From Pseudomonadota bacterium (GTDB lineage Bacteria > Pseudomonadota > Gammaproteobacteria > Acidiferrobacterales > UBA6901): a stretch of DNA of 64,000 bases. Under the pieces are notes generated by a model, which saw only the letters and a program-made list of their open reading frames with translations, was not told the origin of the DNA and did not search any database. Below are positions 42,209 through 62,857 of the stretch, one piece after another. The first letter of the stretch is position 1. Every line of letters starts with the position of its first letter. The stretch covers positions 124,001-188,000 of the forward strand of contig JAKASJ010000001.1 of the NCBI GenBank assembly GCA_021819085.1. Direction: 5' to 3'. Both the position numbers and the translations under genes were made by a program.

Positions 42209-42242
42209 GTTCACTGCGCGGACGCAACGCGGCCCGTGCCGT

Positions 42243-44331: not shown

Positions 44332-44333
44332 GG

Positions 44334-45167
44334 CTAGAGCCCTCTTACCGAAAGCAGGTCCCTGATCTCGGCATAATTGAACACCGGCCCGTCCGTGCAC
44401 ACGAACTTGCCTCCGATCTGGCAATGACCGCAGTGGCCGACGGCGCATTGCATGCTGCGTTCCATGCTCAGCCATATCGCGCTTTCGGAAACGCCGCGCG
44501 CACGCAGCAGGTCCGCTGCGATACGCATCATACCTTCCGGTCCGCACATCATTACGATCGACTTATGCGCGTCGATGCGCGCCCGTGCAAACAGGTCGGT
44601 CACGTGCCCGACGTGCCATGGCCAGAGCGCGCTCCCGACATCGGCCGCTACCAGGACCTGGGTGTGTGCCAAGGTGCTCCAGCGGCGGTAGCGTTCAGCC
44701 CAGATGAGGTCGTCCGCATGCTTCACGCCCTGCATGATGATAAGCTCCCCGAAGTTCTCGCGGCGTCTCATCACATAGTTGATCACCGAGACCGCGGGTG
44801 CGCAGCCCAGACCTCCGGTTATGATCATGACATCACGTCCCTGCGCCTGCGGCAGGGGCCAGCCGCGTCCATAGGGTCCGCGAATACCCAGCCGGTCGCC
44901 CGCGCGCAGCTGCGCCAAACCCCGTGTCACGCGCCCGACCGCCCGGATCGTGTGGTCGAACAGCGTGTCGTCGAGCGGGTCCGACACGATCGAAATCGGG
45001 ACCTCACCGACGCCGTACAGATAGAGCATGTTGAACTGGCCGGGAGCAAAACGATAGCGGCCATGTCTCACGCTGTCGCGAAACCGCAGCCGCAGCGTGA
45101 AAACGGTCGGCGACTCGCGGACGCATTCCGCGACCTCCGCCTCGTGCGGAAGAAGAAGCTCATTCAT
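44334..45167 (-). CDS. hydG: Sulfhydrogenase gamma subunit, FAD/NAD(P)-binding (HydG)
   Basis: Diaphorase subunit of 277 residues that passes electrons between the hydrogenase and NAD(P). The FAD domain opens with the ferredoxin-reductase pattern [11 protein letters not shown] and VPISIVSDP; the NAD(P) domain has [15 protein letters not shown] and [10 protein letters not shown]. The C-terminal [2Fe-2S] motif is [17 protein letters not shown]. It overlaps hydB by 8 bases. Confidence 0.93.
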
Positions 45168-46266
45168 CCGCAGCCCCGGTACATACTGCGGCCGCCTCCT
45201 CGGTGATGTCTATGCCCACCGGACACCAGCTGATGCACCGGCCGCAACCAACGCAGCCGCTGCGTCCGAACTGCCCGTGCCAGCTTCCGAGCTTGTGCGT
45301 CAGCCATTGGCGGTAACGCGTACGCGTGTCGCTGCGTACGGTGAGGCCATGGATATAACTGTGACCCTGGCTGAAGCAGGAATCCCAGGCACGGGCGTGC
45401 ACGCTTGCACCGCCGTCGAGCGCCGGCGTTTCGACGCTTGCGTGGCAAAAGCAGGTGGGACAGACCGAAGTGCAGTTGCCGCAAGCCAGACAGCGACCTG
45501 CGACCTCCCCCCATCTCGGGTGCTCCAGGTTTGCGAACAGCACGGCGCGCAGATCACGCCCCGGCAGACTCCGGTGCTGGCGCGTGCGTGCCGCATCGGC
45601 CTGGCGCGCTGCCGCCGCGCGCGCATCGGCACCGACGGCCTCCAGCTTTAGTTCTGCCGCCACGACAGCACCACGGTCGCTGCCTGACTCCACGATGAAT
45701 CCGGAATCGAGCTCGCACAATGCAAGATCGAATCCGGACGAAGCCTGCGGTCCGTCCCCGGTAGACACGCAGAAACAGACATCCGACGGGTCGCTGCAAT
45801 GGACTGCAACCAGAAACAGTTCCGCCCGGCGCGCTGCATAGTGCGGATCGTCTCCTGCTGCGCCCAGAAAATGGCGGTCCTGCAGTGCCAGTGCAGCCAG
45901 ATCGCAGGCGCGCACGCCGATTACCGCGAGCCGTTCGGCCGGCGGCATCTCCTGGTGAAGTTCGAGCCCCCCGTCTGCCTGGCGCCGGGCACGCCACAGC
46001 ACTTCCTGCGGGGCAAATACGAGCGGCTTCAGCGCCTGCGGGCCGTTTGCCCAGCCGAAATACCGGGGGCTCGCCGTCTGTTCGATACGGTAATGTCCGG
46101 CCGCCTGATGGTCACGTGCCCCACGCGGAAGATCCTCTGCGACCGAAATCGCGGCATAAACGATCGCGCCATCGCGCACCTGCGGGCCGAGGCAGCGATA
46201 CCCGGATCTGTGCAGGACAGCCAACAGCTCCTGGAACCTGCCGCGTGGAAGAAATCCAGTCTCCAT
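45160..46266 (-). CDS. hydB: Sulfhydrogenase beta subunit, 4Fe-4S protein (HydB)
   Basis: Electron-transfer subunit of 368 residues with the start at ATG 46264-46266 behind GGAGAGG. Two ferredoxin-type motifs lie in the C-terminal third: [16 protein letters not shown] and [16 protein letters not shown]. The N-terminal domain resembles the AsrA/HydB family ([19 protein letters not shown]). It is the first gene of the group 3b set and lies 114 bases after atpD, so it may be read from the ATPase operon. Confidence 0.92.
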
Positions 46267-46380
46267 ACCGGCGCCTCTCCGGCGAAAGCGGTTGCCGAAC
46301 ATTAACCCACGATTCGCACGCACTGTCGTGACGGAACGGCGCAATGCTGTCTCTTATCCTTGGGAACCGCAGCCTGCGGC

Positions 46381-46992
46381 TCAGGTCCGGCGCGCGGACT
46401 CCCGCAGGCGCTTGATCTGAAACAGCGTCGTGCGCTCATCCTCCTCGAGCATCGACTCGATGAACCGGATTGTGCTGCGGTAGCGGGGGATAATGTTGTA
46501 GCGCAACGCATTAACGCGCCTCTGGGTCCTGCGCTGCTCGGCCATCAGCCGCCATAGCGCCGTTTCCGCCTCGCCCAGGCGTACGAGCAATACTGCGGTC
46601 TTGGCCAGACCGCTGCGGGCCTGATCGAAGCTCGCATCGGTCCCCATGAGCCCTACCGGCTGGAGCGCGATCTCCTCGGCGCTCGCCGCCGGATATTCGA
46701 TGCCGGCGCTCGATCGCGGAAGAATGCTGACCCTCAGAGCCGACCCGGCCCCGAGTGCCGCATGGCGGATCACCTGGCTGCCCATACGCATCTGCGCAAT
46801 CGCCAACCAGCGGTACGCCTGCTCCAGAACGGCGCGCACCTCCGAGTGCAGGCGGCGATACCGGTCCAGACGCTCGCGCACCAACCTGTTCAACAGTTCG
46901 CGCTTGCGCTCAAGCATGGAATGGCCCTGCTGCAGGAAGCGAAGCTGGCGCCTCAGTCCGAGCAATGCGCTCTTCGTCGGCGGTATCTTCAT
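46381..46992 (-). CDS. atpD: V/A-type ATP synthase subunit D
   Basis: Central rotor shaft subunit of 203 residues, from ATG 46990-46992. The protein is two long helices forming a coiled coil, opening IPPTKSALLGLRRQLRFLQQ as in the family and closing RVNALRYNIIPRYRSTIRFI. It starts 8 bases after atpB. Last subunit gene of the ATPase set; the hydrogenase gene hydB follows. Confidence 0.93.
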   Translation of the reverse strand: MKIPPTKSALLGLRRQLRFLQQGHSMLERKRELLNRLVRERLDRYRRLHSEVRAVLEQAYRWLAIAQMRMGSQVIRHAALGAGSALRVSILPRSSAGIEYPAASAEEIALQPVGLMGTDASFDQARSGLAKTAVLLVRLGEAETALWRLMAEQRRTQRRVNALRYNIIPRYRSTIRFIESMLEEDERTTLFQIKRLRESARRT

Positions 46993-47000
46993 GCGTCCTT

Positions 47001-48395
47001 TCACGGCGCCTCCGCAACCTGCTTCTGACGATGGTATTTGGCCAGATCCGCCTCTCGCACCCGGCCGAGTTCGCCCGGCGGCAGCAACGACAGCAGCTGC
47101 CACGCCAGGGTAAGCGTATCGATGATTGAACGATCTTCGTTCTCGCCCTGCGTCACAAATTGCGTCTCTATGGACCGGGCGAACTCGAGGTATCTCCTGT
47201 CGGTCTCCGAAAGATCCTCCGTGCCGATGATCGAGGCAAGGTTCCGAACCTCGATCGCGCGTGCGTACGACGCGTAGATCTGGTTTGCGACGCGCGGATG
47301 ATCTTCGCGGGTTTCGCCCGCGCCGATGCCGTCCTTCATCACACGCGACAATGACGGAAGAAGATCCACCGGGGGGTAGATGCCCTGATTGTGCAGTTCG
47401 CGCGACAGCACGATCTGTCCTTCCGTTATGTAACCGGTAAGGTCGGGTATGGGGTGGGTGATATCATCGCTCGGCATGCTGAGCACCGGAACCATCGTGA
47501 TGGATCCGCTGCGACTTCGGATGCGGCCGGCACGCTCGAAAATCTCCGCCAGATCGGAGTACAGGTAACCCGGATAACCCTTGCGCGCCGGCACGTCGCC
47601 TCTGGCCATTGCCACCTCGCGCAGCGCTTCAGCGTAATTCGTGATATCCGTGAGAATCACCATCACGTGCATACCCAGATCGTAGGCGAGGTACTCGGCC
47701 GCAGTCAGCGCGGTACGCGGCAGTATCAGCCGTTCTATCGGGGGATCGTCGGCGAGATTGATGTACATGACGACGTTGCCGAGCACGCCGTCGCGCTCGA
47801 AGTCCTCCTGGAAAAAGTGCGCATCGGCGTAGGAGACGCCCATGGCGGCGAATACCACCGCGAAGCGCGCCCGCTCTGCGATGATCCTGGACTGACGCAC
47901 GATCTGCGCCGCGAGACGATTGTGCGGCAAGCCTGGTCCCGAGAAAATCGGCAGCTTCTGGCCGCGCACCAGGGAATACAATCCGTCGATCGTGGAAATT
48001 CCGGTCTGTATGAACTCGCGCGGACGGGTGCGCGCCGCCGGATTCATGGGGCTGCCGTTGACGTTGCGCCTGATGCTCGACACGAGCGGCGGACGGTCAT
48101 CGCGCGGCTGCCCCACGCCATTGAAGATACGCCCCATCAGCTCGTTCGAAAGCGCAATTTCGAACGGCTGCTCCAGGAAGCGCGTCCACGTGCGTTCGAG
48201 ATCCAGTCCGTCCGTGCCTTCCAGGACCTGCACCAGAACCACCTCTTCCGAAGTCCGTATGACCTGGCCGTTGCGCGTGTGCCCGGCATGATCGCGCACC
48301 ACCACCCTGTCTCCCAGCGCCACTCCCGGCACACCGCGCACGAATAGCAGCCCACCGCGCAGCGCCGAACCCAGCCGGTATTCCTTGCCTCTCAT
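47001..48395 (-). CDS. atpB: V/A-type ATP synthase subunit B
   Basis: Non-catalytic nucleotide-binding subunit of the A3B3 head, 464 residues. The P-loop position reads FSGPGLPHN instead of a Walker A, as normal for subunit B. Conserved parts are GISTIDGLYSLVRGQKLPIF, DITNYAEALREVAMARGDVP and GYPGYLYSDLAEIFERAGRI. It overlaps atpA by 4 bases. Confidence 0.97.
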   Translation of the reverse strand: MRGKEYRLGSALRGGLLFVRGVPGVALGDRVVVRDHAGHTRNGQVIRTSEEVVLVQVLEGTDGLDLERTWTRFLEQPFEIALSNELMGRIFNGVGQPRDDRPPLVSSIRRNVNGSPMNPAARTRPREFIQTGISTIDGLYSLVRGQKLPIFSGPGLPHNRLAAQIVRQSRIIAERARFAVVFAAMGVSYADAHFFQEDFERDGVLGNVVMYINLADDPPIERLILPRTALTAAEYLAYDLGMHVMVILTDITNYAEALREVAMARGDVPARKGYPGYLYSDLAEIFERAGRIRSRSGSITMVPVLSMPSDDITHPIPDLTGYITEGQIVLSRELHNQGIYPPVDLLPSLSRVMKDGIGAGETREDHPRVANQIYASYARAIEVRNLASIIGTEDLSETDRRYLEFARSIETQFVTQGENEDRSIIDTLTLAWQLLSLLPPGELGRVREADLAKYHRQKQVAEAP

Positions 48396-50185
48396 GCGCT
48401 ACCTTCCCGTGACCCGGCATATTCGAGAGAAAGCGGCTGGAAAGCGTCGCGCATCTCGGCCGCGAATGCCTTTAATCCGTCCATCTGGCCGTTCGAATAT
48501 GCCGACTTGGCGCGCCGCGCCCGTCCGAGAACCGGGAGCTGCAGCAGCCGCTGCACCGGCACACCCTTGCCCAGCAGATCCCGGCCCTGATGGTAGAGAT
48601 CAAGCAACAGATCGAGCAGCGCGAACTGCCTTTCCGGGGAGCAGAAGCTGTCGACATCATCGAGGGCGCTCTGCTGCAGCAGACCTTCCTTGAGAAGCGC
48701 AGCCGCCTCCAGAACCCATCGCTGGGCTGGAGAAAGCGCCTCGGGGCCGACCAGATTGACGATGCGGGCGAGTTCATCGGACTGCAGCAGCAGCCCCAGG
48801 GCCTCCGTGCGGTGGGCGCTCCAGCGTGGATCGACATTTTTCGCCCACCATACGGCGGCTGCGTCCACGTATCCCGAGTAGCTCTCGGTCCAGTCGATCG
48901 CCGGATAGTGGCGCGCATCGGCCAGCTCCTTCGAAAGCGCCCAGAAGGCCTGAACAATTTCCTTGGTGTGGCTCGTGACGGGCTCCGAGAAGTCTCCTCC
49001 GGGCGGCGACACCGCGCCTATCAGGGAAACAGAACCGTATCCTCCGGCAAGCGTCTGGACACGCCCGGCGCGCTCGTAGAATGCCGACAGGCGCGATGCC
49101 AGATACGCGGGATGGCCCTCCTCCACGGGCATCTGCTCGAGGCGTCCGGCGACCTCGCGCAGCGCCTCGGCCCAGCGGCTTATGGAATCGGCGACCATCA
49201 CCACGTCGTAGCCCTGGTCACGGTAATACTCGGCAAGCGTCACGCCCATGTAAATCGATGCTTCGCGTGCCACCACCGGCATGTTCGACGTATTGGCCAC
49301 GAGCAGCGTGCGTTCCATGAGCAGGCGCCCCGTATACGGATCGGTCAACTGCGGGAATGTCTCCAGTATCTCCACCAGTTCATTGCCGCGTTCCCCGCAG
49401 CCCAGATAGATCATGATCCCGGCATTGGACCAGCGGGCTATCTGCTGCTGCACCATGGTCTTGCCGGCACCGAACGCCCCCGGCACGGCGGCCCGCCCCC
49501 CCTTGAGCAGCGGGAAAAATGTGTCGAGCACGCGCTGTCCGGTAATCAGCGGAACACCCGCCTGGTCGCGGCGTCCGTAGGGACGCGCCTTGCGAACCGG
49601 CCAGCGATGGTAGAGCCTCAGCGGGTGTACCGCTCCATCCCGGCTGCGCACCTGCGCGATCACCTGTTCGACGCTGTAATCGCCCGCCGGCGCGAGATTC
49701 ACCAGTTCGCCATTGACATCGGGTGGCACCAGAATGCGGTGCATGATGGTCTCGGTCTCGGACACCGCACCGATGACCGTTCCCCCGGCTACCGTGCTGC
49801 CGGCGCTGAGGTCGGGAGCGGGCTCAAAGTGCCACAGCCGCTTGCGATCGAGGGATGCAACCGTCAGGCCACGGGCGATTCGGTCACCGCTCTGTTCGCG
49901 AATCTCGGTCAGCGGCCGCTGCAGGCCGTCAAAAATATTGCCGAGCAGTCCGGGTCCGAGCTCGGCAGCCAGCGGGTGGCCGAGCGGCACCGCCGATTGT
50001 CCGGGTGCGAGCGATTCGGTCGACTCGTAAACCTGAACCACGGCGCGCCCGCCGTCGCGCCCGATGACCTCGCCGACCAGCGCCAGTTCGCCGACCCGCA
50101 CCTGCTCCCCGATCGTCACCTGCGGCAGAAATACCGTGACGATCGGGCCATTGACCTCGATGATCCGCCCGAGGGCCGTGCTCAC
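48392..50185 (-). CDS. atpA: V/A-type ATP synthase subunit A (catalytic)
   Basis: Catalytic subunit of 597 residues. Walker A is PGAFGAGKT (235-243), the catalytic glutamate lies in LGCGERGNE (Glu265), and the V/A-specific insertion at about 115-190 is present, so it is not an F-type subunit. The later block SISRWAEALREVAGRLEQMP then VEEGHPAYLASRLSAFYERAG is typical. Coupled by overlap to atpE and atpB. Confidence 0.98.
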   Translation of the reverse strand: MSTALGRIIEVNGPIVTVFLPQVTIGEQVRVGELALVGEVIGRDGGRAVVQVYESTESLAPGQSAVPLGHPLAAELGPGLLGNIFDGLQRPLTEIREQSGDRIARGLTVASLDRKRLWHFEPAPDLSAGSTVAGGTVIGAVSETETIMHRILVPPDVNGELVNLAPAGDYSVEQVIAQVRSRDGAVHPLRLYHRWPVRKARPYGRRDQAGVPLITGQRVLDTFFPLLKGGRAAVPGAFGAGKTMVQQQIARWSNAGIMIYLGCGERGNELVEILETFPQLTDPYTGRLLMERTLLVANTSNMPVVAREASIYMGVTLAEYYRDQGYDVVMVADSISRWAEALREVAGRLEQMPVEEGHPAYLASRLSAFYERAGRVQTLAGGYGSVSLIGAVSPPGGDFSEPVTSHTKEIVQAFWALSKELADARHYPAIDWTESYSGYVDAAAVWWAKNVDPRWSAHRTEALGLLLQSDELARIVNLVGPEALSPAQRWVLEAAALLKEGLLQQSALDDVDSFCSPERQFALLDLLLDLYHQGRDLLGKGVPVQRLLQLPVLGRARRAKSAYSNGQMDGLKAFAAEMRDAFQPLSLEYAGSREGSA

Positions 50186-50829
50186 GGGGCACCTTCCGCA
50201 GAAGATACCGGCGCCGGGAACAGCCGCCCGGTGATCACCTGCTCCAGCACCTCGTGCATGCGCTCAAGCCGCGCCTCGATCGTGAAGTCGACATGCATGG
50301 TGTCGCCGGCGTCACGCACCCGTATCCCGCCCAGGCAATGCAGCGGCTCGGATGCGAGCTGCACCGCCGAGGTCACGCCGGCCGCCTGACAGACCGATTC
50401 CCAGCGCCCGGAGATGCGCGCCCAGTCACGGGCACTGACCTCCGCAACCAGCCCGCCGCTACCGATCGCAGCCGCCGCCCGGGCGAGAAATGCGGCGAGC
50501 ACCGGAAGGTAATCCTCTTCGTTCTCGACGAGGCGCCCGAGGCGGTCGGAAACAGCGGCGATCGCATCCTGCACCAAATGCCAGCGCAGCCACTCCAGTT
50601 CCCGCTGCAGTCTGATTTCGCCCGCCTGGACGCGCTGCCGGTAAGTGCGCTCGGAAAACTCCCTGGCCGAACGGACCTCGCGATCCTCGCGCAGCCGCAG
50701 CCGCTCATTCGCGTCGGCAACGAGTTCATCGTGCCTGCGGCGGGCATCTGCGAGATATTTTTCTGACTGCGCCCTGGCACGTGCGAGCAGCGCCGCCTCA
50801 AGCTCTGCTGTCTGCGAAGGCGAGCTCAT
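50182..50829 (-). CDS. atpE: V/A-type ATP synthase subunit E
   Basis: Peripheral stalk subunit of 215 residues from ATG 50827-50829; the frame is open further but over atpF. The N-terminal half is a long charged coiled coil (ARAQSEKYLADARRRHDELV), followed by a globular C-terminal part that caps the head. It overlaps atpF by 4 bases and atpA by 4 bases. Confidence 0.88.
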   Translation of the reverse strand: MSSPSQTAELEAALLARARAQSEKYLADARRRHDELVADANERLRLREDREVRSAREFSERTYRQRVQAGEIRLQRELEWLRWHLVQDAIAAVSDRLGRLVENEEDYLPVLAAFLARAAAAIGSGGLVAEVSARDWARISGRWESVCQAAGVTSAVQLASEPLHCLGGIRVRDAGDTMHVDFTIEARLERMHEVLEQVITGRLFPAPVSSAEGAP

Positions 50830-51191
50830 GATTGCGGATCCGGCGCCTGCACACTGAACATGCCACGGACCATTTCCTCGACACGCGTGTGGTACTCTTC
50901 CGGCGCATTCAGTGACGGTATCTCCACGACGATGATGCGTCCGCCCTTGGCCCGCACACGCTGCAGCCATGGACCATTGCTTCGCGCGAGATCGCGCTCG
51001 AGGAATATCACCGCATTCTGTTCGTGCTGGCTGAGGCCGGCGAGCAGCGCCTCCAGGGATTGGGGCGTGGCATTGACAACCGTCTCGACACCGATCATGG
51101 AAAATCCGTCCATCAGGGCAGCGCTCCCCAGAGCGATGACCCACGTGCGCAGCGCATTCGCGTCATCCCCGGTCATGACCGTCGCCGCCAC
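50826..51191 (-). CDS. atpF: V/A-type ATP synthase subunit F
   Basis: Small rotor-associated regulatory subunit of 121 residues. The Rossmann-like fold is seen in WVIALGSAALMDGFSMIGVE and KGGRIIVVEIPSL. The start is GTG at 51191, one base after the atpK stop, or the ATG at 51176, which would fit the family length better. Overlaps atpE. Confidence 0.85.
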   Translation of the reverse strand: MAATVMTGDDANALRTWVIALGSAALMDGFSMIGVETVVNATPQSLEALLAGLSQHEQNAVIFLERDLARSNGPWLQRVRAKGGRIIVVEIPSLNAPEEYHTRVEEMVRGMFSVQAPDPQS

Positions 51192-51192
51192 G

Positions 51193-51648
51193 TCACCCGA
51201 GCTTGCCGAGCATCAGGATCGTGACCACCAGTCCGTAGATCGCGATGCCCTCGGCAAGTCCGAGGTAAACGAGGCTGCGGCCGAATGCCTCAGGCTTCTC
51301 GGCGATAACGGCCAGCGCCGCTGCGCCCACCGGCGCGACGGCAATCGCGGCAGCGATCGTCGCCGCTGCAGTCGGCAGGCCGATGCCGATCATCGCCAGA
51401 CCGAAACCGAGCCCGATGGAGGACTGCGCAACCGCCGGCGCAACCGGGGTCGCCGCCAGGGCGTCGTGAATGCTGACCAGCAGCAGCCCGGCTTCCGCCA
51501 GAACGAATATGACGAGATTGGCACCGATCGTTGGCCTCAGCCAGCGTGGCGGGTTTGCGTGCGGCTTGTGAGACCGCATGTCGAGAAACAGTCCAAGAAC
51601 CACGGTACCCGCAAGACTCAACGTGATCAGGCCGACTAGCCAGTACAT
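51193..51648 (-). CDS. atpK: V/A-type ATP synthase subunit K (proteolipid ring)
   Basis: Ring subunit of 151 residues with four hydrophobic helices. The C-terminal hairpin is the normal c-subunit: a glycine/alanine-rich helix (GFGLAMIGIGLPTAAATIAA) then EKPEAFGRSLVYLGLAEGIA with the ion-binding Glu133. The N-terminal hairpin (about 1-23 and 42-60) is not the usual duplicate; it carries Glu52 in FVLAEAGLLLV. No clear sodium-site glutamine is seen beside the key helix, so proton coupling is more likely. Confidence 0.9.
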   Translation of the reverse strand: MYWLVGLITLSLAGTVVLGLFLDMRSHKPHANPPRWLRPTIGANLVIFVLAEAGLLLVSIHDALAATPVAPAVAQSSIGLGFGLAMIGIGLPTAAATIAAAIAVAPVGAAALAVIAEKPEAFGRSLVYLGLAEGIAIYGLVVTILMLGKLG

Positions 51649-51674
51649 GACACGCTCCTTTCATGAACAGGAAT

Positions 51675-53573
51675 TCAAGATTCCATTGCTGCGCCCGGCG
51701 CAAGAGTAAGCGGCCGGAACTCACGGCCACTGCCTCCGAAAAAGTGCGAAAACCCTTCGTAATACTCGAGCCGCAGCGCCTGGATCGCCACGATCGCTCC
51801 CTCAAGTATCACTATGAATAGGTTTCCGAGCACGATCGTTACCCAGTGACCGGTGCCTGCCTGCATCATGGATGCAAGCGCGAAAACCGCTACGGCAAGC
51901 GCCATGTGGTTCAGTCCGAACGCGGCTACCCGCAGGAAGGAAAGCGTGTTGGAAAAGTAGCCGATCGCATCCTCAAGCACCTGGGTAAACGCCACCAGAA
52001 TGCGCTCCCCCATCTGCCCGGCATACCGGTAGCCGTGGTACCCGAACACCACTGCCAGAGCCAGCGCCGCCACGACCCACTGCGTCCGGCCGGAACCGCC
52101 GCTGAAAAACCGGCGATACACGCCGTACAGCACGGCGACATAAAACAACAGCCCGGCCGCCCCCCGGCCGTCCAGCAGGGCGTCCAGATAGCGACGGTCG
52201 ATGATGCGGTTGCATGCAGTCAGCACGCCCACGAGCAGGATGAACCCGATACCGCAGTACAGAGACACGGTCAGCATGCGTACCGGATCGGCAAGCGGAG
52301 ACATCCATAGAGGATGTACCAGCCGCTCGAAACCGAAGACGCTGCCATAAAGCCAGCCGAATCCGACAGACGCCAGGCCGCAAGCGACCACGAAAGGTGC
52401 AAAGCCGCGCAGCCGGCGCGATCCGGATATTCCCGCTGCCGCAATGATGGCTCCGTTGCCGATGTCGCCGAACATCATTCCGAACATCAGAACGAATGTC
52501 GCAGCAAACGGCAGCGTCGGATCGATTTCTCCGTAGCGCGGTACCCCATAGTTGCTCACCAGAAGGGAAAACGGACGCAACAGAGCATGGTGATACAAGA
52601 GCGACGGAACGCGCGCGAACTCATCCGGGCGCGGGTCGCGCGTGCTCAATGCAAACCGCTGCCCAAGCCTGTCCCGGAGTGCGCGCTGCAAGCCTGGCAG
52701 CGCGGAAACCGGCGCCCATCCGTCAATCTGCGTCAACCCGCCGCGGCCTCGCAAGGCCTGCCCAAGCTCGGCGTAGGGCGCCGCGACTGCGAGCGCACGT
52801 GTCGCCTCGACCAGCCTGCCATGGAATTCCCTTTGCATGGCTTCGACTTGCCGGCAGCGGGTGTCGGCCTCGGCGATCATCCGGTCCTGGTGCTTTAGCA
52901 GCTGCCGCCTGGCTTCCTGCGGATCGTCATGCCACTCCGCGGGCATGCGTGCCGCCTGCCAGTCCGCAGACCGCAGCACTGCCCCCACCTCGGACTCCCG
53001 GCCCTTGGGCCCGGCAATAACGACATGCGCCAGCCCCTGCGCGTCCTGCAGTAGCGCCAGCACGTAACCGGCGAGAGCCACCGCCTCGCGCAGCCGGCCG
53101 GCGTTGCCCGACGGCACCATGCCGACCTGCACGTCGAGAAACCGCCGGCTGCGCGCCAGCAGACCGAAATCGATATCGAGCGCCGCGAATCTGTCCAGCA
53201 TCTTCATCAGCTGCGCGACATAGCGCTGCTCCTCCTCGGCACGGCGCAGGCTTTCCTGGCAATTCGAGCACTGCACCCACACGGTACGCAGCCACGCCTC
53301 CACTTTTTCAAGTTCCGTCTCATCGGGAAGAGCCCGCTGCGGCGCCTGTGCATCGGCCGACAACGGACAGTGCACCAGGATCTTGTCGAGATGTCCGCGT
53401 GCCGCCCGGTACAACTCACCGAACCGCTTTCCCGGAAGCTCCGGGAGCAGCTCCGGCGAGCCGCCAGCCTCGGGATTGAAACTGCCGCGCTGCGCCAACA
53501 CGACCGCGGCGGCCGGCGCATCTTCCCGCAGGACCAGCACGGCGATGCGTTGCATGGGCAGGGGCCTGAACAC
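51675..53573 (-). CDS. atpI: V/A-type ATP synthase subunit I (a-subunit)
   Basis: Membrane stator of 632 residues. The first 330 or so are cytoplasmic, with charged coiled-coil parts (SLRRAEEEQRYVAQLMKMLD). The rest has about seven membrane segments with MFGMMFGDIGNGAI, the YISLCRVAA-type YFSNTLSFLRVAAFGLNHMA (essential arginine), and HWVTIVLGNLFIVILEGAIV. The start is GTG at 53573 or ATG at 53555. It forms the ion half-channels with the K ring. Confidence 0.93.
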   Translation of the reverse strand: MFRPLPMQRIAVLVLREDAPAAAVVLAQRGSFNPEAGGSPELLPELPGKRFGELYRAARGHLDKILVHCPLSADAQAPQRALPDETELEKVEAWLRTVWVQCSNCQESLRRAEEEQRYVAQLMKMLDRFAALDIDFGLLARSRRFLDVQVGMVPSGNAGRLREAVALAGYVLALLQDAQGLAHVVIAGPKGRESEVGAVLRSADWQAARMPAEWHDDPQEARRQLLKHQDRMIAEADTRCRQVEAMQREFHGRLVEATRALAVAAPYAELGQALRGRGGLTQIDGWAPVSALPGLQRALRDRLGQRFALSTRDPRPDEFARVPSLLYHHALLRPFSLLVSNYGVPRYGEIDPTLPFAATFVLMFGMMFGDIGNGAIIAAAGISGSRRLRGFAPFVVACGLASVGFGWLYGSVFGFERLVHPLWMSPLADPVRMLTVSLYCGIGFILLVGVLTACNRIIDRRYLDALLDGRGAAGLLFYVAVLYGVYRRFFSGGSGRTQWVVAALALAVVFGYHGYRYAGQMGERILVAFTQVLEDAIGYFSNTLSFLRVAAFGLNHMALAVAVFALASMMQAGTGHWVTIVLGNLFIVILEGAIVAIQALRLEYYEGFSHFFGGSGREFRPLTLAPGAAMES

Positions 53574-53614
53574 AGGTCAGCCGTCCTGGCGCTGGGATCG
53601 GTGAGCGTGGGGCA

Positions 53615-54661
53615 TCAGCCTGGTCCGAATGCGGCAATCAAGCCGGTCGCCCCCCGGATCAGGTCCGGGGCAAGTCCGAGGCGTCGGCCCTTGATGACTG
53701 CACGCAACTGGCGCAGCAGTTTCTCGCGCAGCACGAGATAGGCAAGTACCCGCGCCAGGTTGACGGAACGACTGCGCAGAATCGTCTCGGCCTTGCGCCA
53801 GCCACCACGCTCGAGGATCAGCGTTGCGTCCGCCGCCGTGGTCACCCCGGACAGCGGCCGGGAGAACGGCTGTGGAAGTCCCGCTATGACCTCCTCAATG
53901 GTTTCCAGCCGTGACAGACGCTGCAGCAGCGGCGCTCGCAGCCGGTCGCCTGCAGGTATCAGGAGGTAATAGGTCTGCGCCGGAGGCAGGCCATAGGAAA
54001 ATCGGTAACGCAGCAACCAGAGAAGATTGGTCCGATCGATGATGTCCCCGACGAGCGTATCGAGTTGTCGACGGTCACCGCGCTCCAGCGACTGCAGATG
54101 TTCACTCAGCCCCGCGTAGTAGCGCCGGTCGACGGCGGCATCCATGGCGAACAGCTCGCGCCGCTCCTCGTAGATACGCCGCGCTTCGCGTGCAATGGCC
54201 CCGAATGGCGTATGCTCCAGACGACGAAGCAGTTCGGCCACGTCCTGCGTGCCCAGCAGCTCGTCGACCGGCAACCGCCCATACGGGCCCATGTCGACCA
54301 GCTGCGCCCGGATCTGCGCCGCAGGCTCTCCCGCCATTTTGCCGCGCATTATGGCCTTGAGATTGCTGAGCTCGAAGCGGCATGCCCAGTAGATGAAAAA
54401 CCGGCGCGGCGCGGCGCTCAGGGCGCGCACCAGAATCACGAAATCTGCCAGCAGGCTTGCGATCAGTTGCTGTTCAAGAGAGAGGCCGGTATCGGCCGGA
54501 TGCTCCGGCTCCCCGCCGGCAAGTCCCGCAGCCTGCAGCAGGCCACCGTCCTGCTCATCGGCCTTGTCGATGAGTTCATCGACGCCGCGGTCGGAAAGCA
54601 GTCGCGCCGCCATTCCCGACACTCGGGCGTTCAGGTATGCATACCGCGCGATGGCACGCAT
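53615..54661 (-). CDS. atpC: V/A-type ATP synthase subunit C
   Basis: Central socket subunit of 348 residues that links the D-F shaft to the K ring (V-ATPase d/AC39 family). The start MRAIARYAYLNARVSGMAA matches the family, and FFIYWACRFELSNLKAIMRG and RTNLLWLLRYRFSYGLPPAQ are typical. It lies between atpH and atpI, while in many archaeal operons it is near F. Confidence 0.9.
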   Translation of the reverse strand: MRAIARYAYLNARVSGMAARLLSDRGVDELIDKADEQDGGLLQAAGLAGGEPEHPADTGLSLEQQLIASLLADFVILVRALSAAPRRFFIYWACRFELSNLKAIMRGKMAGEPAAQIRAQLVDMGPYGRLPVDELLGTQDVAELLRRLEHTPFGAIAREARRIYEERRELFAMDAAVDRRYYAGLSEHLQSLERGDRRQLDTLVGDIIDRTNLLWLLRYRFSYGLPPAQTYYLLIPAGDRLRAPLLQRLSRLETIEEVIAGLPQPFSRPLSGVTTAADATLILERGGWRKAETILRSRSVNLARVLAYLVLREKLLRQLRAVIKGRRLGLAPDLIRGATGLIAAFGPG

Positions 54662-54664
54662 GAA

Positions 54665-54985
54665 TCACTCCCAGTCGGGGTCGATGAACAGCGCAAACGC
54701 TGCGCTGACCGCTTCGTCTCCGTGTTTCTGTGCCAGGCTGCGCAGCAGCTCGCCCCGCTGGTGGTAGCGGCGCTCCAGTTCTGCCAGCGCCAAATCAGCA
54801 CGCTCCACCGCCTTGTTGAAAAATGAGCTGCGCAACTCCGGCAAATGCTCTTCAGCGCGCTGCTCAGCCGCGCGCACCTCCGCATGTGCCTGCTCGATCA
54901 GACGATCGCACTCACGCTTGGCCCCGTCGACCAGAGCCTCGGCGCGCGCTTCCGCTTCGAGCAGCCTTCTCAGTTCTTCTGCCAT
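54665..54985 (-). CDS. atpH: V/A-type ATP synthase peripheral stalk subunit G/H
   Basis: Small helical stalk subunit of 106 residues, the partner of E. I start it at ATG 54983-54985 behind GGAGGGG; ten more residues are possible upstream. The protein is almost one coiled coil (RRLLEAEARAEALVDGAKRE then RAAEQRAEEHL). Low-complexity sequences make the family call rest partly on position: it starts the ATPase gene set and is followed by atpC after 3 bases. The 225-base gap to hynL (54986-55210) has no clear promoter. Confidence 0.75.
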   Translation of the reverse strand: MAEELRRLLEAEARAEALVDGAKRECDRLIEQAHAEVRAAEQRAEEHLPELRSSFFNKAVERADLALAELERRYHQRGELLRSLAQKHGDEAVSAAFALFIDPDWE

Positions 54986-55210
54986 CGTCCCCTCCGCAGC
55001 CCTCACGCCCGCCAAAGCGCTGTCGCATCGGGCCCGGCAATCGCACCGCCGGCAAGGTACGGCCCCGGGTCGTCACCCAGACCGGCCGCAGACCGCGGTG
55101 CCGGGTTGTCTGCCAACCCTCCCGCATTCGGTGTGCAGCAGCAGGGTCATGGACGTTGAATACCCCCGGATCCCGCCACCGGCGGTGCCTTGTGTGCGTG
55201 GTCTGGCCGC

Positions 55211-56989
<1,779 letters not shown>

Positions 56990-57063
56990 CTTTCTCCAGA
57001 GGGCGGGGCGGACCGGATGCGGTGCGGGATGCGGGCCGTGGCCCGGACCCTGCGATCCAGCTC

Positions 57064-58419
57064 CTATTGCACGAGATTGTCCGCGACCAGCTCGAGCAGG
57101 CTGTGTGCGGTCTTGTCCCACTTGAAATGCGCCTGACCATCATCGAAAGTCTGGCGGCAGTTCGAACAGCTCATCACCAGCATCTCCGCGCCCGAGTCGT
57201 CCACTTGCTTCATCTTGATCTGAAAGACCTTGTAGCGCAGTTCGTCCGCCCGATGGATAGTCACGACTCCGCCGCCGCCGCCGCAGCACCAGTTGCCGTC
57301 TCCACTCGGGGTCATTTCGTGCAGATCAACGCCCAGTTTCCCGAGCACCTGGCGCGGCGCCTGCGTAGCCCCGCCGCGGCGCGCGATCTGGCAAGGATCG
57401 TGGAATGTCACCGACTTCGGCACATTTTTGACCTTGAGTCTGCCGTTGCCCAGATTTCTGGCAAGAAACTCGGAGATGTGCAGAACCTCGAAGGGCAGCG
57501 GCTTGCCGTAGACATTGGCCCCATCCCAGCGCATGGCGCCGTAGGCGTGGCCGCATTCGGGCAGAATCAGCAGCTTTGCCTTGCACTTGACGGCGGCATC
57601 GATCATTTTCATGCTGAGATCCTTCTGCCACTGGCTGTTGCCCGAGAGCATGCCGAAATTCGTCGCTTCATAGCCGTCCAGGCGAATCGTCCACTTTTCG
57701 CCGAGCGCGTTCAGCACCCTGGCGGTGGCGACGATGGCCTGGGGATATTTCATGATTTCGATCGACGACATGGTCACCAGGATATCCGCGACGTCCCTGT
57801 CCACAGGAATCTCCACGGCGTTCTCGTCGGACAGCCAGTCGATGCGATCCTTAAATACCTTGGGCGTGGCGCCAAGCGGACTGCCCTCGCGCTCGGCACG
57901 CTCGGCAACGGCCCACAGTTCGTGCGGCACAAGCCCTGCCTGGAACATTCCGTGACGCGCCTGTCCCACGAGGCGCGCGATGTCGATGCCCATGGGACAG
58001 ATCAGCGTACAGCGCCCGCACATGGTGCACGAATCGTAAATTAGCTCCTGCCATTTCTGCAGCTCATCCACCGTCACCCGGGGCTTGAGGTTGAACAGCC
58101 GGTAGAAGAATGCGAACGGCCCCGCCTCACGCTTGTATGCCTGCTTGAACGGTTCCAGCTTGCGCACCGGGGTATACCGGGGATCGTTCGTCTGGACGTA
58201 GTAATGGCAGGCTTCCGCGCACATGCCACAGTGTATGCAGGACTCCAGATAGATTGCCGAAGTCGCGCCGAATTCACGCACGAACGTGCGCATGGCGGCT
58301 TCCACGCGCTGGCCATCGGACATGTCACCCTGTCGATCGTAGCGCAGGGCGGGTTTCTTGATGCTCAGGCGCGTCCCTTCGGTATCCAGCGGATGGACCG
58401 TGTTGATGTCAGAGCTCAT
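57064..58419 (-). CDS. isp2: Isp2, heterodisulfide-reductase-like iron-sulfur protein
   Basis: Cytoplasmic-side electron carrier of 451 residues. Two ferredoxin motifs are seen, CIHCGMCAEAC (61-71) and CTMCGRCTLICP (131-142). The C-terminal half has two CCG-type domains, one around FHDPCQIARR and NWCCGGGGG and one around SCSNCRQTF, as in HdrD and in DsrK. It should take electrons from Isp1. It overlaps isp1 by 4 bases. Confidence 0.93.
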   Translation of the reverse strand: MSSDINTVHPLDTEGTRLSIKKPALRYDRQGDMSDGQRVEAAMRTFVREFGATSAIYLESCIHCGMCAEACHYYVQTNDPRYTPVRKLEPFKQAYKREAGPFAFFYRLFNLKPRVTVDELQKWQELIYDSCTMCGRCTLICPMGIDIARLVGQARHGMFQAGLVPHELWAVAERAEREGSPLGATPKVFKDRIDWLSDENAVEIPVDRDVADILVTMSSIEIMKYPQAIVATARVLNALGEKWTIRLDGYEATNFGMLSGNSQWQKDLSMKMIDAAVKCKAKLLILPECGHAYGAMRWDGANVYGKPLPFEVLHISEFLARNLGNGRLKVKNVPKSVTFHDPCQIARRGGATQAPRQVLGKLGVDLHEMTPSGDGNWCCGGGGGVVTIHRADELRYKVFQIKMKQVDDSGAEMLVMSCSNCRQTFDDGQAHFKWDKTAHSLLELVADNLVQ

Positions 58420-59069
58420 GTGCTCGCACCCCTGCGACCGTAGACCGCACCGGTCTGTCCACGCGCGAAGAACAACAGCACGGAGTGCATGAGCTTGCCG
58501 AACGGGAACCAGACCAGCAGCAGTTCGAAACTCAATATGTGTACCGCCAGCAGGGTTTCATAGCGCGCACCGTAATGCGCTGCGGCCAGCAGTCCGGTCA
58601 CTACCGGAGCGGCCGTCACGAACCAGCTGAAATAGTCGTCAAAGTTCGACAGCAGTTTCAGCACCGGATGTGTCAGGCGCCGGACAATGGCCATCACCAG
58701 CGCCACCAGGGTGATAACGGCGCAGAAATAGATGATCCCGCCGGGCAGTCCGCTCCAGCCGACTCCAATAAGGTTACGGATAAACAGGATATGCGGCACG
58801 AACCCGAAGACGATAATCGCCAGTCCGATGTGGAAGACATAACTGACCGTGACGCCGTAGGCGGTCCGCGCCTGGAACTCCCGGCGTGGCCATGAACGGC
58901 GAATGATGCCCTGCAGGGCTCCGAGTCCGGCAGCGTGCACGCGCGGCTCTGAATAATCATGCGTGCGCCGCAGCAGCAGAATGCCAAACAGGCGCCACAG
59001 CATGCCGAACAGGAAGATCGCAATCGACCACTTCATGGCCGCCCCGCGGGCGAAGTCGAGCAGGTTCAT
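58416..59069 (-). CDS. isp1: Isp1, b-type cytochrome membrane subunit
   Basis: Membrane protein of 217 residues from ATG 59067-59069, overlapping the hynS stop as ATGA. Five hydrophobic segments with histidines in TVSYVFHIGLAII and AVHILSFELLLVW are suited to bind two b haems; the family is NarI/DsrM-like. It passes electrons from the periplasmic hydrogenase to Isp2 or the quinone pool. Confidence 0.93.
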   Translation of the reverse strand: MNLLDFARGAAMKWSIAIFLFGMLWRLFGILLLRRTHDYSEPRVHAAGLGALQGIIRRSWPRREFQARTAYGVTVSYVFHIGLAIIVFGFVPHILFIRNLIGVGWSGLPGGIIYFCAVITLVALVMAIVRRLTHPVLKLLSNFDDYFSWFVTAAPVVTGLLAAAHYGARYETLLAVHILSFELLLVWFPFGKLMHSVLLFFARGQTGAVYGRRGAST

Positions 59070-60130
59070 GAGTGCTTCTCCTTGTCGGAGTGCGCATGGC
59101 GGCGGCGCGAGACAATCGCCGCACCCACACCGATAGCAGCCCCGGCGACTGCGGCCGCACCCAGAACAGCGCCGCCGCTCCAGGTGCCCGTGGACAGCGC
59201 CTGATAGAAACCGCCCTTGTCCCAGAAATCCGGCTCCGAACAGCCGAGGCAGCCGTGCCCCGACTGGATCGGATAGCTTGTGCCCTGATTCCACTTCACG
59301 GTCGGGCAGGCGTTGTAGGTGACCGGGCCCTTGCACCCCAGCTCGAACAGGCACCACCCATTGCGCGCGCCTTCATCGTCAAAGGTCTTGGCAAACTTGC
59401 CTTCATCGTAGAATGGCCGGCGATAGCAGCGATCGTGAATGGTCTCGCCGAAAAACACCTTCGGGCGGCCAAGATGATCCAGCTCGGGGAGGCTGCCGAA
59501 GGTCAGGTAATGGGCCAGTACGCCGGTAATGACCTCGGGTACCGGGGGGCAGCCGGAAACGTTGACGACCGGCTTGTCCTTGACGATGCGGCTTACCGCA
59601 ACGGCGCCGGTCGGATCGGGGCTGGCATGCGGGATACCGCCGAACGCGGCGCAGGTGCCGACCGACACGACCGCCGCCGCACCCTTAACGGCCTCGGTTA
59701 GGATGTCAACTGCACTTTCGCCCGCAATGGTGCAATAGGCACCGTCGTGCTCCACGGGCACCGCGCCGTCGACCACGAGCAGGTACTTGCCCCAGTTCTC
59801 CTTCATGGCTGTCTTGCGGGCCTCTTCTGCCGCGGTGCCGGCGGCTGCCTGCAGGGTTTCGTAGTAGTCCAGCGACATGACGTTGAACATCAGGTTCTCC
59901 AGGGTCGGAGAGAACGAGCGCGTGAGCGATTCGCCGCAGCCTGTGCATTCCTGATAGGAGAGGTAGATGACCGAAGGGCGCCTGGCGCGACTCAGCGTCT
60001 CTGCCATCACCGCCGCCATGCCCGGCGGCAGCGCCAGCAGCGATGCCGTGGCCGCACAGAACTTCATGAACGCCCTGCGGGATATGCCCTGCTTTCTGAG
60101 AGATTCCCCAATCGAATCGTCTTTCGACAT
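59066..60130 (-). CDS. hynS: Uptake [NiFe] hydrogenase small subunit, Tat-exported
   Basis: Iron-sulfur subunit of 354 residues from ATG 60128-60130. A Tat signal, SRRAFMKFCAATASLLALPP, exports the folded dimer. The proximal cluster begins with ECTGCGES (Cys62, Cys65), then VGTCAAFGGI and VSGCPPVPE. Distal and medial clusters use HDRCYRRP, CLFELGCKGP, NACPTVKWN and GHGCLGCSEPDFW. A C-terminal hydrophobic helix ending in RRRHAH anchors it in the membrane. Confidence 0.96.
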   Translation of the reverse strand: MSKDDSIGESLRKQGISRRAFMKFCAATASLLALPPGMAAVMAETLSRARRPSVIYLSYQECTGCGESLTRSFSPTLENLMFNVMSLDYYETLQAAAGTAAEEARKTAMKENWGKYLLVVDGAVPVEHDGAYCTIAGESAVDILTEAVKGAAAVVSVGTCAAFGGIPHASPDPTGAVAVSRIVKDKPVVNVSGCPPVPEVITGVLAHYLTFGSLPELDHLGRPKVFFGETIHDRCYRRPFYDEGKFAKTFDDEGARNGWCLFELGCKGPVTYNACPTVKWNQGTSYPIQSGHGCLGCSEPDFWDKGGFYQALSTGTWSGGAVLGAAAVAGAAIGVGAAIVSRRRHAHSDKEKHS

Positions 60131-60164
60131 CGGATACCCCCTTGGTTGCGACGCCCTGTGGCGC

Positions 60165-60590
60165 TCAGCCGCCGAGCGCCTCGAGCTGCGCGTGCAGCAT
60201 TTCAAGCCCATCGGCAACATCGTCCGGCGGCGTTCTGAGAATATCGGGCAGGTGCGTGATCTCGATGAACTCCGCAGCGACTTTCCCGTCTTCGTTCCGA
60301 TGCGCAACCCACCATACGCCGCGCACAACCGACTCGTACACGTGCGTCTGTCCGAGAGCACGAATCACAGCGCTCACCTCGCCTTCCGCGAAAATCCTGC
60401 GCAGAACGTCACGGTCGCCCGGTCCCATCGGCAGGCTGCGCAGATCGATGGATCCGCAGATTCCGGCATCCGCCAGCTTTGCCAGCATGGACTCGACTTC
60501 GTTCACGATTGCCAGCACCCGGCTAAAATTGCCGACCGGTTCCGTGCCGGCCACCCTGACCGGGAAGTCGCCGAGTGCGGTCACTGCCAC
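60165..60590 (-). CDS. HupH/HyaF C-terminal domain-like hydrogenase expression protein
   Basis: Protein of 141 residues with only the C-terminal conserved domain of HupH: VESMLAKLADAGICGSIDLR, SLPMGPGDRDVLRRIFAEGE and HVYESVVRGVWWVAH, ending EFIEITHLPDIL. Full-length HupH is about twice as long. HupH-type proteins assist small-subunit or oxygen-protective maturation. It overlaps hupD by 10 bases and precedes hynS by 34. Confidence 0.85.
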   Translation of the reverse strand: MAVTALGDFPVRVAGTEPVGNFSRVLAIVNEVESMLAKLADAGICGSIDLRSLPMGPGDRDVLRRIFAEGEVSAVIRALGQTHVYESVVRGVWWVAHRNEDGKVAAEFIEITHLPDILRTPPDDVADGLEMLHAQLEALGG

Positions 60591-61051
60591 GCTCCAGCAA
60601 GACTGAAGACTTCACCGCAGGCCTGGGAGATCGCCCGCGCAACGGCTTCGCTGGGACCATCGGCCCAGTCCAGGAATTGGGGCTGTATTCCGATCAGCGC
60701 CCGACGGTGCGGCAGCCGTCCGGCAAGCAGGGCTATCGCCAACAGATCGAGCAGGCTGACCTCGTGCACACTCGCTCTGCGATTCGTACCGAGAAAGTGA
60801 TCCATATCCTCACCGATGAATACCCGCAGGGTGCCCGGGGCTGCATGCAGCTGCGCAGCGTCGACTACGATGAGATTGTCGGCCTGTTCGATCAGACCGG
60901 CCAGCGTGAAACTGAGCGTGCCGCCATCGAGGAATTCGATGTCGGAACGATCGCGGTGCAGTTGCTGCATTCGGCGCACGGCATGAACGCCAGCACCTTC
61001 ATCGCCGAGCAGCGTGTTTCCCAGGCCGAGGACCAGCGTTTTTTTTGTCAT
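60581..61051 (-). CDS. hupD: Uptake hydrogenase maturation endopeptidase HupD
   Basis: Nickel-dependent protease of 156 residues from ATG 61049-61051 for processing HynL. The motifs LGLGNTLLGDEGAGVHAV and FLDGGTLSFTLAGLIEQAD then NLIVVDAA, and SVHEVSLLDLLAIA are those of the HyaD/HupD family. It is first in the minus-strand uptake hydrogenase set, so it precedes the structural genes, opposite to the usual order. Divergent from hypC, with an FNR box between. Confidence 0.93.
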   Translation of the reverse strand: MTKKTLVLGLGNTLLGDEGAGVHAVRRMQQLHRDRSDIEFLDGGTLSFTLAGLIEQADNLIVVDAAQLHAAPGTLRVFIGEDMDHFLGTNRRASVHEVSLLDLLAIALLAGRLPHRRALIGIQPQFLDWADGPSEAVARAISQACGEVFSLAGAWQ

Positions 61052-61226
61052 TTCCCCCGCACCGCTGCCGCCCGGCAGCACTTGCCTGACCCGAGACCAT
61101 CGGCCCGCGATCACCAGCGTTGGCCCCGTGCTTCCGCACAGCATCCGGTTCGCCGATGTCGCGCTCCAGCGCGTCTGCACGAGCCGTGCCGTTCATGGGA
61201 TAGTATTCCACCCAAGATGGTGATCA

Positions 61227-61267
61227 TTGACATAAATCAAAATTCCGCGAAAGCGCTGCGCTAAGAT
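61227..61267 (+). promoter_or_regulatory. FNR box and class II-type promoter before hypC
   Basis: TTGAC-ATAA-ATCAA (61227-61240) matches 9 of 10 positions of the FNR box TTGAT-N4-ATCAA. A -10-like TAAGAT lies at 61262-61267, placing a start near 61274 and the box centre at about -40.5, the position of FNR-activated class II promoters. It lies in the divergent hupD-hypC gap and may serve both directions. Confidence 0.75.
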
Positions 61268-61344
61268 TAAAAAGAATAACTGGTACCTGGAGGTGCGGTC
61301 CGATGATGCAGTACGGCTCGCCCCGTTCGGCCGCGGAGGGCAGC

Positions 61345-61572
61345 ATGTGTCTCGGTATACCCATGCAGGTCATGGAAATCGATGGTTATGTTGCGCGCTG
61401 CGCTGCCAAGGGTGTCGAGCGCGAAGCCAGCCTGCTTCTGCTGCAGGATGAACCGCTCGCGCCGGGCGACTTCGTGATGATCCACCTGGGTTATGTCGTC
61501 CAGAAGATGACCGCCCAGGAGGCACTTGCCGCCTGGGAACTTTATGATCAGATGCTTGCCGCCGATGCATGA
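61345..61572 (+). CDS. hypC: Hydrogenase assembly chaperone HypC
   Basis: Small chaperone of 75 residues that binds HypD and the large subunit during iron-cofactor transfer. The start ATG at 61345 (MCLGIPMQV, with the essential Cys2) has GGAGGG upstream; the frame is open 14 codons higher. The C-terminus has GDFVMIHLGYVVQKM. It overlaps hypA by 8 bases. Confidence 0.97.
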   Translation: MCLGIPMQVMEIDGYVARCAAKGVEREASLLLLQDEPLAPGDFVMIHLGYVVQKMTAQEALAAWELYDQMLAADA

Positions 61573-61951
61573 ACTCTCGGTGTGCCGGTCACTGATTGCC
61601 CAGGTGGAGGCAGTGGCGGTACAGCATGGAGCAAGGGCGGTGCGGAGTATCCGCATCTGCGTCGGACCGCTCTCCGGCATCGATCCGGATCTTCTGCAGC
61701 GGACCTATCCGCTCGCGCGGGCGGGCACCGTTGCGGATACCGCCGGACTCATTATCGAGCGCCTGCCGATCCGCGTCCGCTGCGAGCGCTGCGGCTTTGA
61801 GTCCGAGGCGGCGCCGAACCGGCTGATATGCACCCACTGCGGCGACTGGCATACCCGGCTGCTGAGCGGGGACGAGATGCTGCTGGCGAGCGTGGAGCTG
61901 GAAACGGACGATGGATTGTCTGCGTCGCCGGATCAGGCCCGGATTCCTTGA
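61565..61951 (+). CDS. hypA: Hydrogenase nickel incorporation protein HypA
   Basis: Nickel carrier of 128 residues. It starts MHELSVCRSLI with His2 for nickel, and the zinc site is Cys73/Cys76 (CERC) with Cys89/Cys92 (CTHC). It works with HypB for nickel insertion in both hydrogenases. A 42-base gap leads to hypB. Confidence 0.97.
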   Translation: MHELSVCRSLIAQVEAVAVQHGARAVRSIRICVGPLSGIDPDLLQRTYPLARAGTVADTAGLIIERLPIRVRCERCGFESEAAPNRLICTHCGDWHTRLLSGDEMLLASVELETDDGLSASPDQARIP

Positions 61952-61993: not shown

Positions 61994-62857
61994 ATGTGCG
62001 ACACCTGCGGATGCAACATTACACCCGGAAACCGGCATCTGGTGGCAAACGGCGGAACGCTGTCCCGGACCGAGGACGGCAAGGCTGCCGTGACGGTGCT
62101 CAGAAGTCTTCTGGATGAGAACGATCTGCAGGCACGCCACAACCGGGAGCATTTCGACCGGCATGGAGTCCTGGCCGTCAATCTCATGTCATCGCCGGGT
62201 TCCGGCAAGACTGCGCTGCTGGAGGCGACCATCGATGCATTGCGCCATGAATTCAGGTTGGCCGTAATTGAGGGCGATCTCGAGACCGAAAACGACGCAC
62301 AACGCGTGCGCGCCAAGGGCGTACCCGCCGTTCAGATCACAACCGGAAGTGCCTGTCATCTGGACGCGCACATGGTGCACGATGCACTGCATCTTCTGCC
62401 GCTCGAAGGAATCGACATCGTCTTCATCGAGAATGTCGGAAATCTCGTCTGCCCGGCCAGCTTCGATCTCGGCCATCACCGCAACGTCACACTGCTCTCT
62501 GTCACCGAGGGCGACGACAAGCCCGCCAAGTATCCGGTGATGTTCCGCGCCGCTGATCTGATGCTGCTCACCAAGATCGATCTGCTCGCGGTCCTCGACG
62601 ATTTCGATCCGCAGCACGCCGAGGCGGCATTGCGCCAGCTGGCCAGCAGGGCGCCGACAATCCGGCTTTCCGTGCGCTCCCACGAGGGCCTGGACGCCTG
62701 GACCGCCTGGCTGCGGCGCGAGCTCAGCGCACAGCGCCAGCGCGTCGCGCAACACGACAGTGCGCACCCCGCGGTCCAGCCCGACGGCCGCCGTCTGCAT
62801 CCCAGGACGGCGGCGACCGCCCGCCCGGGATACGTGTTTCTGCCGGCAAAACCCTGA
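61994..62857 (+). CDS. hypB: Hydrogenase nickel incorporation GTPase HypB
   Basis: GTPase of 287 residues. The N-terminal high-affinity nickel motif CDTCGCN is followed by no histidine-rich stretch. The G domain has SSPGSGKT (66-73), the metal site around SACHLDAH, FIENVGNLVCPASFDLG and LTKIDLL. After the domain end (about 242) there is an extra 45-residue basic tail (RRLHPRTAATARPG) not seen in typical HypB. Last of the hyp genes here; hypD, hypE and hypF must lie elsewhere. Confidence 0.96.
   Translation: MCDTCGCNITPGNRHLVANGGTLSRTEDGKAAVTVLRSLLDENDLQARHNREHFDRHGVLAVNLMSSPGSGKTALLEATIDALRHEFRLAVIEGDLETENDAQRVRAKGVPAVQITTGSACHLDAHMVHDALHLLPLEGIDIVFIENVGNLVCPASFDLGHHRNVTLLSVTEGDDKPAKYPVMFRAADLMLLTKIDLLAVLDDFDPQHAEAALRQLASRAPTIRLSVRSHEGLDAWTAWLRRELSAQRQRVAQHDSAHPAVQPDGRRLHPRTAATARPGYVFLPAKP

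Follow-up and report, generated by a model that had tools for sequence, protein, structure and literature searches.

The window considered here is the whole 64 kb stretch of DNA that was analysed, taken from a genome (G000) of 3.42 Mb in 78 contigs, and it contains two hydrogenase-related gene sets that face away from each other (Table 1). On the plus strand lie hypC, hypA and hypB; the preliminary description called this group hypCAB, and the names are borne out by the profile matches of HypC (PF01455), HypA (PF01155) and HypB (TIGR00073). On the minus strand, a maturation protease begins a divergent operon whose genes run, nearly gapless, through to the large subunit of a [NiFe] hydrogenase. 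The cytochrome b subunit of this operon (58416..59081) has no Pfam match; with the iron-sulfur subunit beside it, it presumably makes up the pair usually called Isp1/Isp2 (57064-59081). Collinear and nearly gapless genes continue on the minus strand over ~19 kb in all (41690-61051): the hydrogenase operon comes first, V/A-type ATPase subunits (PF00006, PF01992) follow at ~46.4-55.0 kb of the window, and the ATPase genes give way at 41.7-46.3 kb to another [NiFe] hydrogenase set, which again includes a protease. A matching ATPase C subunit is found downstream of the protease, on the same strand, in 17 of 80 loci from named genomes, a count in which several loci end too early.

Table 1. Genes and predicted regulatory elements around the divergent intergenic region (coordinates of the window).
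Feature	Position	Strand	Evidence and remarks
[NiFe] hydrogenase large subunit (approximate start)	55211..56980	-	PF00374, 769 bits
Iron-sulfur subunit, Isp2-like	57064..58419	-	PF13183, PF02754
Membrane cytochrome b subunit, Isp1-like (approximate start)	58416..59081	-	TmcC and HmcE matches below cut-off
[NiFe] hydrogenase small subunit (approximate start)	59066..60130	-	PF14720, PF01058, TIGR00391
HupH-type protein	60165..60590	-	PF04809
Hydrogenase maturation protease, first gene of divergent operon	60581..61051	-	PF01750, TIGR00072 above cut-offs
-10-like TACTAT, protease/hydrogenase-side promoter	61200..61205	-	21 nt from box; implied start ~61193; TAnnnT at 21-22 nt in 10/13 loci
Fnr-family operator TTGACATAAATCAA (predicted)	61227..61240	.	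Only perfect match in window; perfect box in 13/13 orthologous regions
-10-like TAAGAT, hypC-side promoter	61262..61267	+	21 nt from box; implied start ~61274; TAnnnT at 21-22 nt in 11/13 loci
hypC	61345..61572	+	PF01455, TIGR00074 above cut-offs; start picked so that protein begins MCLGIP
hypA	61568..61951	+	PF01155 above cut-off; TIGR00100 71 bits, under its cut-off of 88
hypB	61994..62857	+	TIGR00073 277 bits, above cut-off

Between the two gene sets lies TTGACATAAATCAA (centre 61233.5), which matches TTGAY-N4-RTCAA without mismatch, the pattern used here for the TTGAT-N4-ATCAA box of class II Fnr-activated promoters. The 64 kb window has no other perfect box; when it was shuffled 100 times with dinucleotides preserved, the mean was 0.13 perfect boxes, with at least one in 11 of the 100. 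The likely start of hypC, ATG 61345, is 104 nt past the box, and an in-frame ATG at 61303 is a possible alternative. On each side a -10-like hexamer stands at the same distance from the box, and the two predicted starts that these hexamers imply both put the box centre at -40.5 bp; with starts at these places it would fall in the range given for class II sites, near -41.5 and up to 4 bp to either side (PMC3688515). A class II position before hypCAB had been proposed for the box, and the start predicted from TAAGAT agrees with it: the interval 61227-61267 spans exactly from the first base of the box to the end of that hexamer. No -35 can be recognised on either side, and the two promoters should therefore need an activator. 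A general sigma-70 and terminator scan of 60900-61600 found no stand-alone match of either kind; this would be expected of an activator-dependent promoter but is no proof of one.

The genome encodes candidate regulators for such a site. The CRP-family helix-turn-helix model has six matches in G000, and two proteins, on contigs C17 and C76, pass the NCBIfam Fnr model NF008365 (cut-off 228 bits) with scores of 250 and 299 bits; the fnr gene on which the preliminary description had made its reading depend is thus present in two copies. Both proteins carry the C-x2-C-x5-C motif, the VCE(I/L)P cysteine and the residues ETVSR. In Fnr, those four cysteines are the ligands of the cluster and ETVSR supplies the DNA-reading residues. 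Most of the C17 copy can be aligned to the FNR regulator of known structure 5cvr/5e44, and the cluster cysteines, the Fnr fold and an ETVSR-type helix are found in both copies. Two other CRP-family proteins, L003 (ETVSR) and one on contig C3 (ETFSR), lack the N-terminal cysteine cluster and have E-T-x-S-R helices; judged by these residues, they might bind the same box. Across the order, the Fnr model is matched in 56 of 57 genomes and its cut-off is passed in 44 of the 57.

Perfect boxes are common in G000, with 40 against 5 for a reversed control pattern. Around these 40 boxes (80 sides), the -10-like pattern TAnnnT occurs 7, 8 and 6 times at 21, 22 and 23 nt, and 0-3 times at other offsets from 0 to 59. 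Because TAnnnT peaks at 21-23 nt around its boxes, class II spacing is, by this measure, in real use in G000, and the TTGACATAAATCAA site has such spacing. Among the 40, the box at 61227-61240 is the only one flanked by a -10 at 21-22 nt in both directions; independence of the sides predicts about 1.4 such boxes (7/40 x 8/40 x 40), and a single two-sided case in this genome, taken without conservation, is not significant. The two-sided geometry occurs 26 times in the 57 genomes of the order, and 0 times with the control. The idea that two-sided boxes are favoured throughout the order was rejected: the 1791 boxes have a -10 on 568 of 3582 sides, and the 26 cases observed are fewer than the 45-51 expected under independence. 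The same 14-mer also occurs in the opposite orientation at G000:C3:5979-5992 (L077), before an open reading frame that looks NnrS-like by eye.

A search of the 57 genomes with the divergent protease as query matched 26 genomes. The 13 best loci (L022-L034), this window among them, have 58-100% protease identity, and in every one of them a perfect box precedes the protease. No perfect box is present there in the 17 weaker loci (L035-L051), one of which has a site with one mismatch. In the 13 best loci, TAnnnT at 21 or 22 nt is found on the hypC side in 11 and on the protease side in 10, and any other offset between 8 and 44 shows it in one locus at most; both sides have it in eight loci, representing four of the seven sampled genera. 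The 13 loci are related rather than independent, and with one hand-picked locus per genus (L022, L027, L030-L034) the hypC side matches in 5 of 7 and the protease side in 6 of 7. Set against other boxes of the order, the two-sided arrangement is present in 8/13 at this locus and in 18/1778 elsewhere, a comparison whose small p-value should not be taken at face value given that the loci are related. What is unusual is that this locus keeps the two-sided arrangement, not two-sidedness in general. The preliminary description had linked the divergent hydrogenase genes to the box with a "perhaps", which understated the case: with TACTAT 21 nt away and the spacing kept in 10/13, the support for that side is roughly equal to that for the hypC side.

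The hypC and protease sides can come apart: TAnnnT at 21-22 nt is missing from the hypC side in L030 and L032, and from the protease side in L027-L029. In L027 and L028 it is hypA, not hypC, that adjoins the box. On the hypC side of L030 and L032, inspection by eye shows a TATACT farther downstream, preceded at 18 nt by a CTGACG-like -35; this pair may be a promoter that replaces the missing one.

The box thins out beyond the order. A wider sample comprised the 80 loci from named genomes, and in 77 of them the sequence upstream of the protease is 250 nt or longer; 18 of these 77 have a perfect box no more than 500 nt upstream, and none was found with the reversed control. Eight of the 18 were taken as records already in the order set, and the other ten include a Solemya velum symbiont, two Arenicellales bins and a Rhodoferax bin. 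One locus of this set (L170) also has both -10s. Most beta- and gammaproteobacterial relatives outside the order are without the box: the divergence of protease and hypC spreads well beyond the order, but the box does not. Among genomes of the class, a box 43-103 nt before hypC was counted in 11 of 369 (control 0), which is a lower bound since that gap limit just misses the 104 nt of this window, and which includes candidate hits beyond the order.

Another maturation gene, hypD, lies on contig C41 behind a hydrogenase-large-subunit-like gene that we infer to be HoxV/HupK-like. A perfect Fnr box (L188:9901-9914, G000:C41:27900-27913) stands 216 nt before the hoxV/hupK-like gene and hypD, and boxes lie ~213-222 nt before the hoxV/hupK-like gene in all four same-genus relatives examined; in L193, where the contig end cuts the locus, the distance is ~219 nt. 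In G000 there is no TAnnnT at 20-23 nt from this box toward the hoxV/hupK-like gene, so it would act differently from a class II site, if at all. A loosely conserved stretch follows ~16-30 nt after the box (TTGTGTTGCCGTGT here) and does not resemble a usual -10. Behind hypD, on the minus strand (L188:5472-7535), a protein combines formyl-transferase and enoyl-CoA-hydratase domains, which we take to be the make-up of HypX. HypX makes the CO ligand and is usually linked with aerobic hydrogenases, and a HypX-like make-up is odd beside the box of an anaerobic regulator.

Direct observations are the box at the divergent locus, the genome's enrichment in such boxes, its pair of Fnr genes, the equal distances to the -10s and the conservation of all three elements. 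The reading that we consider likely is that one Fnr-family operator forms the centre of a symmetric divergent promoter and drives two class II promoters that compete. A single dimer of the active regulator (Fnr is active at low oxygen), bound to the box, would recruit RNA polymerase to either side: rightward, TAAGAT would lead to transcription of hypC-hypA-hypB, and leftward, TACTAT would lead to transcription of the protease-hupH-small subunit-isp1-isp2-large subunit operon. The products of hypC, hypA and hypB act in cofactor assembly and nickel insertion. Low oxygen would then probably activate a hydrogen-using enzyme together with the genes for its assembly. In the Fnr family the two-fold symmetry of the dimer means that polymerase can meet an identical face whichever way it is oriented. 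The shared operator would be used by one polymerase at a time, and since the activator site is overlapped by class II complexes, competition between the two directions is to be expected; E. coli bidirectional promoters show such competition once one direction is activated (PMC12825309). Activation of both sides within a population is feasible, since a single site in Dinoroseobacter shibae serves both nirS and nosR2. Binding, activation, the oxygen response, the operon lengths and mutual exclusion are what we infer on this basis, and the interpretation of the box as a link between nickel maturation and oxygen level is supported and extended, with its oxygen dependence a prediction. A stronger version, in which one dimer serves one polymerase so that hydrogenase and nickel-maturation transcription alternate at a fixed ratio, and in which the leftward promoter may feed the ~19 kb of hydrogenase, V/A-type ATPase and second [NiFe] hydrogenase genes, is speculative and on balance improbable. 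If it were true, a whole hydrogen-to-ion-gradient module would take its oxygen response from a single box.

Other readings differ from this one in the regulator, in the direction of transcription or in whether the site has a role at all. The box might be served mainly by an Fnr relative that senses nitric oxide or another signal (Dnr-like) and not by oxygen-sensing Fnr. The two proteins without N-terminal cysteines have compatible helices, the identical 14-mer on C3 precedes the open reading frame judged NnrS-like by eye, and DnrD is the main activator at a shared D. shibae site (PMC5398030); yet both true Fnr proteins have the recognition residues, and FNR is the known regulator of hyp in E. 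coli (PMC3149613), and we regard a mainly Dnr-like control as unlikely.

A promoter that works in one direction only is a further alternative: the box would drive either hypCAB or the protease/hydrogenase operon, and the opposite -10 would be a remnant or would be shut when the other side is active. Five loci that miss TAnnnT at 21-22 nt on one side (L030/L032 and L027-L029) fit this, as does the finding that at E. coli bidirectional promoters activation one way represses the other (PMC12825309). Preservation of the exact -10 spacing on both sides in 8/13 loci and 4/7 genera argues against it, and makes a one-sided promoter quite improbable. A last alternative is a chance palindrome without regulatory role. 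With ~0.13 perfect boxes expected per shuffled window a lone box would not be decisive, but its presence in 13/13 loci with flanking -10s at fixed spacing contradicts chance, which we consider extremely unlikely.

The elements of the proposed two-promoter arrangement have precedents. In Thiocapsa roseopersicina, the hyn hydrogenase (an Isp-type [NiFe] enzyme) is under FnrT, an Fnr-type control like that proposed here. A close parallel in layout comes from D. shibae, where the divergent pairs nirS/nosR2 and hemA3/dnrE each share one Fnr/Dnr site, at -39.5 and -41.5, and where reporters in both directions of nirS/nosR2 depended on the regulators (PMC5398030). Here too a single site lies between divergent genes, and it would be near -40 from both starts implied by the -10s. 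The differences are that D. shibae is an alphaproteobacterium and that its sites serve denitrification and haem genes with DnrD as main activator, whereas the present case involves hydrogenase and hyp genes, has equal spacing on both sides, is conserved through an order and is predicted from sequence.

For the hyp genes themselves, FNR is reported to activate the maturation operon of E. coli, an FNR-type control that is predicted here too, and the part of the report consulted does not describe that operon as sharing a site with a divergent hydrogenase operon, while hypCAB here faces away from one (PMC3149613). Rhizobium leguminosarum has an FnrN-type promoter before hypBFCDEX that responds to low oxygen, and its structural genes hupSL have a separate NifA-dependent promoter (PMC3534401). 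An Fnr-type promoter before hyp genes is likewise predicted here, but both gene sets appear to share one operator instead of having separate promoters. Warman et al. describe bidirectional promoters in which one -10 element is common to starts on both strands and near-symmetric DNA takes RNA polymerase in two competing orientations (PMC12825309). The likeness is in the near-symmetric DNA and the two competing orientations; here it is the activator site that is shared, and each direction has a -10 of its own (61200-61205 and 61262-61267), which places the locus outside their definition.

Control of hyp genes by FNR and the use of one Fnr/Dnr site by two divergent promoters are already published, and a literature search of open-licence papers recognised none that describes a shared hydrogenase/hypC operator. 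The TTGACATAAATCAA locus is a well-conserved new example that combines ingredients each known elsewhere. It offers a clean, conserved natural case of one activator site with two equally spaced -10 elements, with which competition of polymerases at an activated divergent promoter could be tested directly. For the organism, a little-studied bacterium, it predicts that a single step couples both the hydrogenase genes and the maturation genes to oxygen.
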